Positions 2,850 through 9,872 of a DNA stretch of 27,122 nucleotides are shown here, piece after piece (positions within the stretch are counted from its first letter, which is position 1; every line of letters starts with the position of its first letter). A program made the translations under genes and the position numbers. The notes under the pieces are model-generated. The model saw only the letters and a list, made by a program, of their open reading frames with translations. It was not told the origin of the DNA and ran no database searches. The stretch is from the IMG/VR virus record IMGVR_UViG_3300042691_032598, positions 1 to 27,122 of that record; one strand, 5' to 3'. The DNA comes from a virus.

Positions 2850-3356
2850 CTATTTATTTTGCCAAAGTTTTCCTTCAGAAATTCTCCTTCTCATTAATCC
2901 CAGTTCTACATTAGTCCCAGGATTACGATAGAGTTTTAATGCTTCAGGTACTTTAGACCATTCCTTATTTTTTAGAACCCCTGTTATCGTATTAAAGTCA
3001 GGGCTTCCGTAAAAATGAGCGCCAAGATTATAAGCAAAGCTAAGAATTGCGCCTTGTTGATTTTCATTCATCTCTCCCCAATAAGGAATTTTTTGTAGTG
3101 CAGGAAGAAATTCAGTTTTAAGTTGTTGTTCTAATAAGAGGTTTGCACTTTGAATATCTATCTTATCCTTAATATTAAATGGTTTCCCATCAAAGTTTTT
3201 AGTACTTCCCCATCCAATTGTTATAGGAAGATTTCCAGTTAGAGGATCATAGTATGCGGTAGAACTAAAGTCTTCAAATTCTTTAATTAAAAAGACACCA
3301 CTTTGAGGAATTTGTGATGTCGTTTCTACTTTTTTGCGTGGAAAATTCGACCCCAA
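2850..3356 (-). CDS. GH24 lysozyme (endolysin muramidase), probably made only as a frameshift fusion
   Basis: The lysozyme domain shows the GH24 pattern: LIKEFED with the catalytic Glu, AYYD nine residues later, then ITIGWG, and near the end GLMRRRISEGKLW, typical of phage lysozymes. It would cut the glycan strand of peptidoglycan during lysis. The frame contains no ATG or GTG before the domain; the only possible initiator is TTG at 3356, inside the upstream peptidase gene and without a ribosome site. The frame is -1 relative to the peptidase frame, and a slippery A AAA AAG plus stem-loop sits at the junction. Translation by -1 frameshifting would give a 393-aa peptidase-lysozyme with the lysozyme catalytic residues at about E253, D262 and T271. 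A homopolymer sequencing error is the alternative. Confidence 0.85.
   Translation of the reverse strand: MGSNFPRKKVETTSQIPQSGVFLIKEFEDFSSTAYYDPLTGNLPITIGWGSTKNFDGKPFNIKDKIDIQSANLLLEQQLKTEFLPALQKIPYWGEMNENQQGAILSFAYNLGAHFYGSPDFNTITGVLKNKEWSKVPEALKLYRNPGTNVELGLMRRRISEGKLWQNK
3294..3335 (-). promoter_or_regulatory. Predicted programmed -1 ribosomal frameshift signal
   Basis: Reading the minus strand: the slippery heptamer A AAA AAG (3335-3329) is in the correct phase (GCA AAA AAG) and is followed at once by the zero-frame stop TAG (3328-3326). A 7-nt spacer (3328-3322) leads to an 8-bp stem GACATCAC/GTGGTGTC (3321-3314 with 3301-3294, one G-U pair) with a 12-nt loop. The -1 frame after slippage is exactly the lysozyme frame. 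The slip site has the same GCA AAA AAG context as E. coli dnaX. Confidence 0.75.
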
Positions 3357-4030
3357 CCAGTCTTATCCTTTGTACTTTCTAACCAACGATATTGAAGATC
3401 TGATCTCTTATAAACTGCACCTTTACCATTTGTTACTGCACCCGTATATCCATCATTTAGAGAACCATATGGATCATTTACAACGTAGTCACTTCCTTTC
3501 TTACCGACCACTACACACATGTGCCCACCAGTAGGAGCAGATAAAGTGCCACGGTGAAGAATACCGATAACAACGGGTCTCCCAGCAGCAAGCTCACGAT
3601 CAAGATCAGAAAACCCAAGATTATACCTAAACTCAGACTTAAGTCCATAAGAAGCAAGAACACTGGTTTGAACTGAATGATCAGTCGTGTCCCCAGTTGC
3701 GAGAACTTTTTTAAGGTAGGCATCATCGCCCTTTTCTCCTGGAAGTGTGCCCGGTTTAAAGTACTCAAGGCACATTGCACAGGAAGAAGAATTACAAGTT
3801 CTATCTGGTTGAGTATAGTTATCTACCTGAGGAAAATAAGGAACGTTTAGAATTCCTGGTTGTTCAGGAGGTGCTTGTTTAGTTCTAAAAATACTAACCC
3901 AAACACTAGAGTCATCCATTAACTCAGGTGCTTTAGCAAGTAAATCCTTTTCAAGTTGCTCTACTGCTGCAACATGATTTGGATTTTTTTCATCATAATA
4001 TTGAAAAAAATTATGAAGATCAATCTGCAT
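3326..4030 (-). CDS. C39-like (papain-fold) cysteine peptidase, N-terminal half of a bifunctional endolysin
   Basis: A 234-aa protein with the Peptidase_C39_2 arrangement: ILNVPYFPQVDNY (about 60-72), a Cys region TCNSSSCAMCLEYF with Cys79 in the catalytic position, GGHMCVVVG with His170, and VVNDPYG with Asp186. Such domains cleave peptides, including peptidoglycan cross-bridges. Residues 1-55 are helical and polar with no signal peptide, so a holin would be needed to reach the wall. It stops at TAG directly after a slippery heptamer, with a GH24 lysozyme in the -1 frame, so two products (peptidase alone and peptidase-lysozyme) are expected. Its ATG overlaps the previous small ORF by 11 nt. 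Confidence 0.8.
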   Translation of the reverse strand: MQIDLHNFFQYYDEKNPNHVAAVEQLEKDLLAKAPELMDDSSVWVSIFRTKQAPPEQPGILNVPYFPQVDNYTQPDRTCNSSSCAMCLEYFKPGTLPGEKGDDAYLKKVLATGDTTDHSVQTSVLASYGLKSEFRYNLGFSDLDRELAAGRPVVIGILHRGTLSAPTGGHMCVVVGKKGSDYVVNDPYGSLNDGYTGAVTNGKGAVYKRSDLQYRWLESTKDKTGWGRIFHAKK

Positions 4031-4217
4031 CTTTTTCGTCTCCTAAGTATTCAAGTGAAAAAACATCATGTTCGGGAATATCGGGATCCATCCATTCATT
4101 AAACTCTGCCTGAATTGCATGAGCGTCCTCAATACTCTTATTTTCACACAAGGTATGTATGCGGTCAATTGCCCAATCGTGAGAATTTCTAAGAGTCTGT
4201 TCCAGTAGCGTCATCAT
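4020..4217 (-). CDS. Small acidic hypothetical protein (65 aa)
   Basis: The start is set at ATG 4217 (MMTLLEQTLRNSHDW). A longer reading in the same frame to 4283 lies wholly inside the upstream gene and is less likely. The product is acidic and helical: IHTLCENKSIEDAHAIQAEF, then acidic EWMDPDIPEHD and an ending GDEKDAD. It has no membrane segment. It overlaps the upstream gene by 29 nt and the peptidase gene by 11 nt, so it is translated from the same late message as the lysis genes. Function unknown. Confidence 0.6.
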   Translation of the reverse strand: MMTLLEQTLRNSHDWAIDRIHTLCENKSIEDAHAIQAEFNEWMDPDIPEHDVFSLEYLGDEKDAD

Positions 4218-4632
4218 AATAATCTTTTCGAAAATATCTAGAGAGAATATTGCTATTGTAGTACGCTGGAACTCCAGAGTCAAGTGATTCAGTCAGTACA
4301 TTATTTAGAAAAAGTTGTCTTGTTTCCTCAAAGTTACATTTACCTTTGGTCTTATGAAGACTTATAATGTCTCTACCGAAGAACTCTTTGCCATATTTAA
4401 TTACATCTTCCTTTAGTTCAGGGCAAGAACCATAATAATTTTTCCAATCAGATTCTGACTTTACTTTTCTCTTCTTTCCTTTTGGGGTTCTGAATTGCCA
4501 AAAGTACTTCCTTCCCAAATATTTCCGATTCGTTGTAGAGCAAGAAATGAGATATACAAAACCAAAATAATCTTGAATATGAGAAGACTCAAAAACTTCT
4601 CCATTATATTTCCAAGGGTTCTCATAGCTCAT
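4189..4632 (-). CDS. GIY-YIG-like (Seg-like) putative endonuclease
   Basis: A 147-aa protein with a degenerate GIY-YIG-type start: FGFVYLISCSTTNRKYLGRKY (YLI and YLG in place of GIY and YIG, about residues 24-44). The basic KGKKRKVKSESDWKNYYGS and the block ELKEDVIKYGKEFFGRDI are typical of a small family widespread in T4-like phages. The Glu/Cys/Asn segment KGKCNFEETRQLFLNNVLTE may supply the metal-binding Glu. No homing-type DNA-binding modules (NUMOD) follow, so it is probably a phage housekeeping nuclease rather than a mobile one. It is the first gene after a terminator/promoter relay and a late promoter GATAAATA 23 nt upstream. Confidence 0.65.
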   Translation of the reverse strand: MSYENPWKYNGEVFESSHIQDYFGFVYLISCSTTNRKYLGRKYFWQFRTPKGKKRKVKSESDWKNYYGSCPELKEDVIKYGKEFFGRDIISLHKTKGKCNFEETRQLFLNNVLTESLDSGVPAYYNSNILSRYFRKDYYDDATGTDS

Positions 4633-7050: not shown

Positions 7051-7463
7051 TAGATTATATTACAACCTGGTTCTAATATTTTATAAGTGTTTCCATCATA
7101 GACAACACCAGAGTAATATTCTGTATTATTAAAGACGGAAAACATATTATATTTTCTTTTATCTTCAAAAGGTGTTATATCTATCAAATTTCCATAAGTA
7201 TTTTTCCAAATACTATGATATATTGCACACCCATAAGTTTTATCGTCAACATCCGTGATTAGATAATATCCACTTATTTTTTCTCCACCATAAGTATTCA
7301 CATAATGATTTACATTATTGTGGCAGTTTGCGTCAGCACATAATGGTTTAGATACTACAGGAACTTTTAACAAAGTATTAGAGAACTTACAATACTCCTT
7401 AAGTTTTACCACGCACTCATCTTCTGGTAGTGATATTCTAAACTTTCTCAATACTCCATCCAT
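7050..7463 (-). CDS. Uncharacterised protein riding with the GIY-YIG insert (137 aa)
   Basis: The start is placed at ATG 7463 (MDGVLRKFRISL), overlapping the endonuclease gene end by 26 nt; longer readings lie in that gene. Visible parts are a Cys/His/Asn segment LCADANCHNNVNHYVNTYGG, a beta-rich core GYYLITDVDDKTYGCAIYHS, and NTYGNLIDITPFEDKRKYN. The order CHNNV, GY-x-L, HS-x-W, LIDITP resembles a family that I recall from phages and bacteria without a known function. Its stop overlaps the 53-aa ORF start (TAATG). It is probably cargo of the insert or a neighbour moved with it. Confidence 0.6.
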   Translation of the reverse strand: MDGVLRKFRISLPEDECVVKLKEYCKFSNTLLKVPVVSKPLCADANCHNNVNHYVNTYGGEKISGYYLITDVDDKTYGCAIYHSIWKNTYGNLIDITPFEDKRKYNMFSVFNNTEYYSGVVYDGNTYKILEPGCNII

Positions 7464-8058
7464 TCTTTCTTGGTCCTTTTCTATCATAAAAAATTGCTGC
7501 GTGCATAGTTGCGTATGATATTTTATTTTGGCTACAAAACTTTTTAAGTTCTCCAAACACCTCAGTTTTTTCTCCAGAAGGACTTGTTATAAGATAAGTT
7601 ACTGATGATGCAGATTTAAAACCTTCAGCAAATCTTTCTTTTGCTTTTTCACTTATTTTTCTTTTTCGTTCTTCACTGCAAGGAACACCATAACTTGGAT
7701 TATTTTTTCCTGCTACCTTTTCACTTATTTTTTTCTTTGCTTCTTCGGTGTGCTTTCTACCACTAAACCCCCTTGTTCTTTGTCCTCCTGGTTTTCCTTC
7801 ACCACCAAGATTTTGATTTAATAAAACTCCACCATCACATTTTCTTTTCCAGAGTGCTATATGTTTGATCTCAAGTTCTATTGCTTCCTCTTTTGATAAC
7901 CCAGATTTTACAATCCACCTTCTTTCTTTTGGTGGAAGTAAGTTCGCTCCGTTACTTCTAAGATGTTTTGCGTGTAATCTTCTTGGTTTTCCATAACCAA
8001 CATAAAAGGGAGAACAAAAGTCCTCCCTCAAATAATAATAAAGAATATAGGTATTCAT
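7438..8058 (-). CDS. GIY-YIG homing endonuclease with NUMOD-type DNA-binding modules
   Basis: A 206-aa protein. The N-terminal GIY-YIG-type domain has YILYYYL at the start, FYVGYGKPRRLHAKH (residues 18-32) and the metal-binding Glu in EAIELEIKHIALW. Residues 95-145 hold NUMOD3-like repeats (RGFSGRKHTEEAKKKISEK and PCSEERKRKISEKAKE). The end (TEVFGELKKFCSQNKIS) resembles the NUMOD1/helix-turn-helix tail of I-TevI-type enzymes. It would cut nrdB of related phages lacking the insert and so spread by recombination. Expression is predicted to be late only, from TATAAATA in the loop of a 12-bp hairpin just before the ATG. Confidence 0.85.
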   Translation of the reverse strand: MNTYILYYYLREDFCSPFYVGYGKPRRLHAKHLRSNGANLLPPKERRWIVKSGLSKEEAIELEIKHIALWKRKCDGGVLLNQNLGGEGKPGGQRTRGFSGRKHTEEAKKKISEKVAGKNNPSYGVPCSEERKRKISEKAKERFAEGFKSASSVTYLITSPSGEKTEVFGELKKFCSQNKISYATMHAAIFYDRKGPRKNGWSIEKV

Positions 8059-8153: not shown

Positions 8154-9306
8154 CCTGCTTGATTCCACCAACAATATATGACTGTACTTGAGTTTGTTGA
8201 GGTGCCACTTGGAGACCCTTGGAGGAAATCCAGTGCTCAGTCCATGGAAGAGGATTATTCTTAGCGGGAATATCATAAAGTGGGCGAAGTCCAATTGCCT
8301 TCATTCTACGATTCGCAATCCACTCAACATACTGCTGCAACAGCTTGTCATTTAAACCAATCATAGATCCATCTTTGAACAAATACTCTGCCCAAAGTTT
8401 TTCTTGATTGACAGCATTCTCAAAAGTATTATAGACCCACTGTTCTTCTTCTTTAGCAATACGTGCCATTTCTGGGTCATCACCTTCTTTCCATTTGTTA
8501 AGAATATTTTGAGTGATGACAAGGTGCTGATTCTCATCTCTGGCAATTAGTGAGATGATTTTTGCACTTCCTTCCATAAGTTTGAGTTCGCCAAATGCAA
8601 AACTGCAAGCGAAACTGACATAAAAGCGAATACCTTCAAGAATATTAACGTTTGCAACTGCTCTAAAGAGTTTGCGTTTGAGTTCATATCTTGCCTCTAA
8701 TGCGGTTGGAACTTGTTCTTGAGCATACTTCCAGTCATTAGTTATCCCATAATGCTGAGCACTATTAATGAAATCATTGTACGCCTCAGTTACACTGACA
8801 GCACGTTCCATGATACGATCCTCCCTGAGAATCGTATCAAAAACTTCAGATGGATCCGAATAAACATTTTTAATGATATAAGTATAAGACCTAGAGTGAA
8901 TCATTTCCATGAATTCCCAGACCTTCATACATGCTTCTAGTTCAGGAAGAGAGCAGTATGGTGCAAATGCCATACCAGGACCTCTTCCCTGAACCGAATC
9001 AAGCATTACCTGATACTTTAGGTTACTAGTAAAAATATGTTTTTGTTCGGGACGTAGAGATTGATAATCTCCACGATCTTTCTGTAAAGAAACCTCTTCA
9101 GGTCTCCAAAAATAACCTAATTGTTGTGTCGTGAGTTTATCGAAAATAGGATACTTATAAGAATCATAACGCTGAATACCCAGAGGTTGTCCAAAGAACA
9201 TTGGAGATTTTTTTGTATCAACTTCTTCAGAGTTAAAAACTGTCATACCTCCGATATGTTGCATATTAACACTGTCCATATTCCTCTTAAAATTGAATTT
9301 GTTCAT
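8116..9306 (-). CDS. nrdB: Ribonucleotide reductase class Ia, small (beta) subunit
   Basis: It builds the diferric-tyrosyl radical used by NrdA to reduce NDPs to dNDPs for phage DNA synthesis. Iron ligands and radical Tyr are all present with E. coli spacing: D103, E134, H137, Y141 (HSRSY), E224, E258 and H261 (DENQH). The C-terminal tail DTFSGFQL should dock on NrdA. The reading uses ATG 9306, which overlaps the HNH gene (ATGA). Residues 1-20 are not typical, and the usual cyanophage start may be Met21 (MTVFNSEEVD, 9246); Met10 follows an AGAGGA. The gene is complete although bracketed by two homing endonucleases. Confidence 0.95.
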   Translation of the reverse strand: MNKFNFKRNMDSVNMQHIGGMTVFNSEEVDTKKSPMFFGQPLGIQRYDSYKYPIFDKLTTQQLGYFWRPEEVSLQKDRGDYQSLRPEQKHIFTSNLKYQVMLDSVQGRGPGMAFAPYCSLPELEACMKVWEFMEMIHSRSYTYIIKNVYSDPSEVFDTILREDRIMERAVSVTEAYNDFINSAQHYGITNDWKYAQEQVPTALEARYELKRKLFRAVANVNILEGIRFYVSFACSFAFGELKLMEGSAKIISLIARDENQHLVITQNILNKWKEGDDPEMARIAKEEEQWVYNTFENAVNQEKLWAEYLFKDGSMIGLNDKLLQQYVEWIANRRMKAIGLRPLYDIPAKNNPLPWTEHWISSKGLQVAPQQTQVQSYIVGGIKQDVTKDTFSGFQL

Positions 9307-9872
9307 AGGTGTTTAATGTGCAAATTACCGTGTCCTCTTTTCCATCCACTTGGAATCTCTTCTTTTGAAGAAATTCTTTTACCAACAACTCCGTTATTTA
9401 TCCAGAAAAAGGTGCCTTTATTTTTACATCCTTTTTTATTACCTATTTGTGCTGAAGACATTTTTTTTCTAGTTTCTTCAGTTTTTGGTTTGGACATTTT
9501 TCTTTTTGTTTCTTCACTTTTAAGAACACCTTTTCTAGTTTTAGACATTTTTTTCCTAATGTCTTTTGATAATTTTGTTCCCATTTGATATTCTGAAATA
9601 AATTTTCTACTTTGCTCAAACAGTTTGGAAGAAAAATTACACCTAGTCCCCATAGCGTTATATGCTCTATGAATGCTTATATTATCTGGATACATTTTAA
9701 CTAATAATCTATGACATATTAAATGTTCTCTAGCAGTTAATTCTACTAAATTATCATTACAGTTAGACCCACCCATACACTTTGGTGTGATATGGTGGGT
9801 TTCTGTGTATATTTCCGTGATTCTTTTTTTCGCTCTACTAATAATTAAATTATATTGGCGAAAATAATCCAT
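9303..9872 (-). CDS. HNH homing endonuclease between nrdA and nrdB
   Basis: A 189-aa protein. The HNH fold is seen in YTETHHITPKCMGGSNCNDN (His26, His27) followed by LVELTAREHLICHRLL (His50, His54). Residues 95-140 carry three NUMOD3-like Lys/Ser modules (KDIRKKMSKTRKGVLKSEET, KRKMSKPKTEETRKKMSSAQ). The C-terminus (FFWINNGVVGKRI, IPSGWKRGHGNL) is a typical DNA-binding tail of phage HNH homing enzymes. It probably cuts at the nrdA/nrdB junction of relatives. Unlike the GIY-YIG gene it has no TATAAATA hairpin upstream. Its stop overlaps the nrdB ATG (ATGA), so nrdB may now depend on its translation. Confidence 0.85.
   Translation of the reverse strand: MDYFRQYNLIISRAKKRITEIYTETHHITPKCMGGSNCNDNLVELTAREHLICHRLLVKMYPDNISIHRAYNAMGTRCNFSSKLFEQSRKFISEYQMGTKLSKDIRKKMSKTRKGVLKSEETKRKMSKPKTEETRKKMSSAQIGNKKGCKNKGTFFWINNGVVGKRISSKEEIPSGWKRGHGNLHIKHL

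Follow-up and report, generated by a model that had tools for sequence, protein, structure and literature searches.

The sequence analysed here, referred to as the window, is a 27,122-nt fragment of a T4-like cyanophage (IMGVR_UViG_3300042691_032598). Its peptidase-lysozyme locus has nrdA, nrdB, UvsX, a DnaB-type helicase, a primase and a DNA polymerase as neighbours (named by PHROG matches, with the nrd and polymerase names taken from the ORFs). Every part of the locus lies on the minus strand, which a preliminary description of this DNA had left unstated. The following elements were distinguished: (i) an ORF with an ATG start encoding a C39_2-like cysteine peptidase of 234 aa (positions 3326-4030), which sets the zero frame and ends GCA AAA AAG TAG; (ii) a slippery heptamer, A_AAA_AAG (3329-3335), in phase with the peptidase frame; (iii) the zero-frame stop codon TAG directly 3' of the heptamer (3326-3328); (iv) a predicted stimulatory stem-loop (3294-3321), placed after a 7-nt spacer (3328-3322) and composed of an 8-bp core (3321-3314/3301-3294) and a 12-nt loop; and (v) a GH24 lysozyme frame (2850-3335), which is -1 relative to the peptidase, comprises 161 aa from the slip site and remains open until the stop codon at 2852-2850. 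The end of the peptidase frame, the exact -1 phase of the lysozyme, the in-phase heptamer and the 7-nt spacer with its 8-bp stem-loop had all been claimed in the preliminary description and agree with the sequence, the stem-loop also with the predicted fold; the length of 393 aa given there for a joined two-domain product was recovered on recalculation (232 + 161). Its statement that the lysozyme frame has neither ATG nor GTG before the catalytic region likewise holds, but it had missed a TTG in this frame (3356-3354), located 28 nt before the peptidase stop codon behind an AAGGA-like stretch.

Several other ORFs of the minus strand were recorded. Two homing-endonuclease-like ORFs (9303-9872 and 7438-8058) lie beside nrdA/nrdB, and a GIY-YIG-like ORF (4189-4632), labelled NAD synthetase in PHROGs, is found upstream of the peptidase. 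Just after the lysozyme, ORF 1707-2843 encodes a 378-aa protein without a PHROG match and contains a tandem array (2185-2385; 18/45-nt unit) specifying PED/EDP repeats.

The peptidase was assigned to the Pfam family Peptidase_C39_2 (PF13529; E 2e-12). The criterion of conserved catalytic Cys, His and Asp residues was met by C79, H170 and D186, invariant in 73 relatives; the C39-like structure 3erv was among the weaker Foldseek matches, and no relative in the PDB was found by sequence. The product of the -1 frame belongs to the Pfam family Phage_lysozyme (PF00959; E 3e-16), its E21, D30 and T39, invariant in 71 relatives, satisfy the corresponding Glu-Asp-Thr criterion, and its predicted fold matches GH24 endolysins. 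Judged by these sequence features, the lysozyme frame is a GH24 phage muramidase (endolysin), whose ability to lyse the wall of host cells is only predicted. For one related in-frame fusion (L031), the alignment-based fold comprised two domains joined by a low-confidence linker at residues 233-240; the single-sequence fold of the same protein reached a pLDDT of 34.

IMG/VR and phage records, scanned at the protein level, provided 131 distinct peptidase loci for the main classification. These fall into: (i) 84 loci with an in-phase A_AAA_AAG and the lysozyme at -1; (ii) 22 restart loci, in which the lysozyme start overlaps the peptidase stop (21 ATGA and one GTGA) and no heptamer is present; (iii) 12 in-frame peptidase-lysozyme fusions; and (iv) the remaining one reversed-order fusion, five pairs of separate genes and seven loci without a lysozyme found downstream. 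Every -1 overlap among the 131 loci has at least one of two features, the heptamer or an overlapping start codon (ATG or GTG). Later scans, outside the main classification, added further A_AAA_AAG loci and the group of phage S-CAM7. Two A7 in-frame fusions (L031 and L154) may be real or homopolymer errors, and no conclusion rests on them. In S-CREM1 (L212) and L030 the lysozyme and the peptidase are fused in the reversed domain order within one frame. The preliminary description had proposed an alignment of the locus in related phages as a check, and this was passed, the heptamer and the -1 phase recurring in 84 loci and a covarying hairpin in nearly all of them. Relatives with one uninterrupted frame, or with a lysozyme having its own ATG, which it had named as refuting the idea, do exist, but they form distinct architectural classes; the own-ATG class has neither heptamer nor hairpin, and the existence of uninterrupted fusions means that the joined protein is viable.

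The motif AAAAAAGTAG is expected 0.28 times by chance in the window and was found once, so that taken alone it could be fortuitous; it is its conservation in relatives that places it beyond chance. The A run consists of exactly six A in 83 of the 84 heptamer loci, and the same A6 junction occurs in a 9.9-kb contig (IMGVR_UViG_3300008117_001224) with 100% protein identity over both stretches; the run in the window is therefore not a sequencing error. A stop codon adjoins the heptamer in 74 loci (64 TAG, 7 TAA and 3 TGA), and one sense codon separates the two in the other 10. Codon invariance at the heptamer was discarded as evidence because the loci had been selected by the heptamer, which makes the argument circular, and weight was therefore put on the class counts and on the Lys-Lys codon pairs elsewhere in these peptidases, of which just 12 of 79 are AAA AAG. 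An upstream SD-like stimulator, optional as in dnaX, was seen at 14 of the 84 loci, without enrichment over the restart class.

The stem in the window is formed by a 5' arm, GACATCAC (3321-3314), and a 3' arm, GTGGTGTC (3301-3294), with one G-U among its 8 bp, and the 45 nt from the slip site fold at -12.3 kcal/mol (z = -4.2). Helices with 8 or more contiguous bp, beginning 3-10 nt downstream, were found at 75 of 79 distinct sites; the figure was 13% in shuffled sequences and 4-20% at control offsets within these genes, apart from one offset that reached 51%. The arms of relatives are unrelated in sequence (GTTCTACTCC/GGAGTAGAAC, AGTTCTATTCC/GGAATAGAACT, CAACACCAC/GTGGTGTTG and GCCAACTAAC/GTTGGTTGGC are examples), and stem positions mostly show two to four Watson-Crick pair types, compensating changes keeping the pairing intact. 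In a frameshift site, structured RNA should follow the heptamer at about 5-8 nt, a criterion met by the 7-nt distance in the window and by the covarying stems located 3-8 nt downstream in relatives. After dereplication, the helix was present in 69 of 73 frameshift types vs. 0 of 18 restart types. Only four sites have less than 8 bp. Three of them (L047, which is S-SRM01, L093 and L188) combine the heptamer with an overlapping ATG or GTG, which suggests that the hairpin decays following the gain of a start codon; in the fourth (L005), a 6-bp core extends past a mismatch.

No ATG, GTG or TTG precedes the catalytic region in the -1 frame of 52 of the 84 heptamer loci, and many of those found in the other 32 are situated downstream, inside the linker. 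At 71 of 84 loci, upstream stop codons keep the -1 frame closed up to a point 10-13 nt ahead of the peptidase stop. Median dN/dS equals 0.14 for the peptidase and 0.20 for the lysozyme (counted from the slip codon), which indicates purifying selection on both frames and fulfils the criterion of a conserved overlapping -1 frame.

What the sequences show is an in-phase heptamer that is conserved, a -1 phase that does not vary, a covarying hairpin, a lack of start codons and selection on both frames. On these rests the reading that we prefer, with a probability of roughly 0.93: the locus is a site of programmed -1 ribosomal frameshifting, of the dnaX/IS-element kind, through which the endolysin would be expressed, although neither protein nor ribosome data support this as yet. 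A separate lysozyme could instead be initiated at the TTG (3356-3354) or another weak start and be translationally coupled to the peptidase, the heptamer being incidental. The AAGGA preceding this TTG in the window, and the use of restart by relatives with ATGA overlaps, speak for such coupling. The TTG, however, stems from the codons of a conserved Gly-Trp-Gly, and a stop closes the -1 frame between the position of such a codon and the heptamer in most relatives, the close relative L003 among them, for which reason the TTG was judged incidental; initiation there would moreover leave the fixed heptamer and the covarying hairpin unexplained, and the restart class has neither. We regard coupled initiation as very unlikely.

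Slippage of RNA polymerase on the A run, yielding mRNAs one base shorter or two bases longer, would also give a fusion, in that case from altered transcripts. Six A make a short run for transcriptional slippage, the run keeps its length and is always followed by a G in phase, and a conserved hairpin 3-8 nt downstream suits ribosomes better than a slipping polymerase. Even though the same products do arise in this way in Thermus thermophilus dnaX (PMC5009743), this origin seems more improbable still than coupled initiation. A frame break that was introduced into an ordinary fusion gene by faulty assembly or sequencing, or that marks decay into a pseudogene, can for practical purposes be dismissed: homopolymer runs are error-prone and related phages do have in-frame fusions, but the recurrence of the junction at 84 distinct loci, and its presence in both genome records of the cultured phage S-PM2, refute error for the family, and the purifying selection on both frames, together with the invariant catalytic residues, argues against error and pseudogene alike. 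A tail-chaperone frameshift of the lambda G/GT type was also considered and rejected, since the frames encode a peptidase and a lysozyme and the neighbours are the GIY-YIG-like ORF and nrdB/nrdA, not a tape measure gene.

Under programmed frameshifting, most ribosomes would stop at the TAG and release the 234-aa C39-like peptidase. Some ribosomes, held up by the hairpin 7 nt further on, would slip back one base on A_AAA_AAG and continue, producing a peptidase-linker-GH24 muramidase fusion of 393 aa. The slip would serve to couple production of the lysozyme to that of the peptidase, at a reduced ratio, and the overlapping ATGA start or the in-frame fusion of relatives may represent alternative ways of tying both enzymes. 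That the slip occurs and the fusion is made, as well as the efficiency of the slip, the product ratio and its importance, and the timing, are inferred only. In Escherichia coli, a sole tRNA-Lys with the anticodon UUU has been linked to high slippage on A_AAA_AAG (PMC5009743). The host-type genome G020 (a single large contig, from the family of a Cyanobium MAG) encodes one tRNA-Lys, with the anticodon UUU, and one tRNA-Lys was shown for the Cyanobium MAG itself; a second tRNA-Lys (CUU) was detected in 3 of 41 host-family members, its absence elsewhere resting on similarity search only. The predominance of a single UUU tRNA-Lys in host-type genomes speaks for frameshifting. The three genomes with a CUU tRNA count against frameshifting, as do the TTG with its SD-like stretch in the window, the starts present in 32 of 84 loci, the lack of an upstream SD-like stimulator and the 51% of helices at one control offset.

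The locus resembles E. coli dnaX in the heptamer, the downstream stem-loop and, by inference, the simultaneous tRNA-Lys slip (PMC5009743). In dnaX, however, the slipped ribosome soon meets a stop codon and the product is shortened, whereas the cyanophage slip would add a whole enzyme; dnaX also has an upstream SD-like element, which the cyanophage locus lacks. A short and a longer, frameshifted product are likewise made from lambda G/GT, the T3 capsid gene, and the capsid and tail genes of Listeria phages (PMC5009743), but these are structural or assembly proteins, while the cyanophage pair encodes lysis enzymes. The closest fused counterpart is the protein of Synechococcus phages ACG-2014f (PHROG 3617, whose profile spans both window proteins), with the same two domains in the same order; it is encoded in a single frame without a zero-frame stop, and only the fused form is expected. 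The lysA gene of mycobacteriophage Ms6 likewise yields two lysis enzymes that differ in length, but the embedded second endolysin arises from an in-frame internal start, without a change of frame (PMC3111421). The PRFect publication counts lysins with the genes in which a frameshift is known, and cites for this a Lactococcus phage paper from 1994. No description of a frameshift-encoded cyanophage endolysin was found in the open-access papers searched (mostly titles and abstracts, with most subscription journals outside the search); the passages seen in some of the papers with both frameshift and endolysin terms concerned tail chaperones, other proteins or reference lists. The mechanism is already known; its use for a cyanophage endolysin appears to be new.

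Cultured phages carry comparable sites. Phage S-PM2 has A_AAA_AAG TAA and, behind it, a stem of 11 bp, a site on which its two genome records (AJ630128 and LN828717) agree fully. Its annotated putative lysin starts 93 codons into the lysozyme frame, without the catalytic N-terminal part. The annotated lysin of S-CAM7 is truncated likewise; the zero frame of the S-CAM7 group reads GTT TTT TTT CCA CAG TAG, with a predicted T_TTT_TTT slip into a lysozyme frame devoid of a start and a strong hairpin about 5 nt later (z -5.0). A frameshift would account for the annotated lysins of both phages being such fragments. PHROG 10457, an endolysin family of 95 positions, covers the C-terminal part only and, by inference, may have been built on truncated fragments of this kind. 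In cultured S-CRM01 (L213), lysozyme homology at about 1840-1880 is distributed over two frames across the annotated endolysin genes g113 and g112, near an A-rich run, and may represent a break or another recoding site.

On the peptidase tree, the frameshift label requires 19 changes vs. 33.6 in shuffles, and restart and fusion types are interspersed. For this reason the junction device appears, as far as the tree can tell, to have been switched more than once (no more than 7 changes are required by branches with strong support). Judging from relatives with natural fusions, from those with restart and from the alignment-based fold, the two enzymes may not need to be covalently linked; the feature that seems to be preserved, by inference, is the dependence of lysozyme synthesis on ribosomes fresh from reading the peptidase. 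We propose, tentatively and at somewhat less than even odds, that cyanomyoviruses hold the lysozyme tied to and below the peptidase by three interchangeable devices at a single junction, repeatedly gained and lost (a -1 frameshift with either of two heptamers, an overlapping restart codon and an in-frame fusion), and that host lysis is dosed through the frameshift. Most known examples of programmed frameshifting in phages come from genes for tails and capsids; here a frameshift would join two predicted lytic enzymes in viruses whose hosts are abundant picocyanobacteria. Restart, fusion and frameshift would provide natural variants for studying how phages set the dose of their lysis enzymes.
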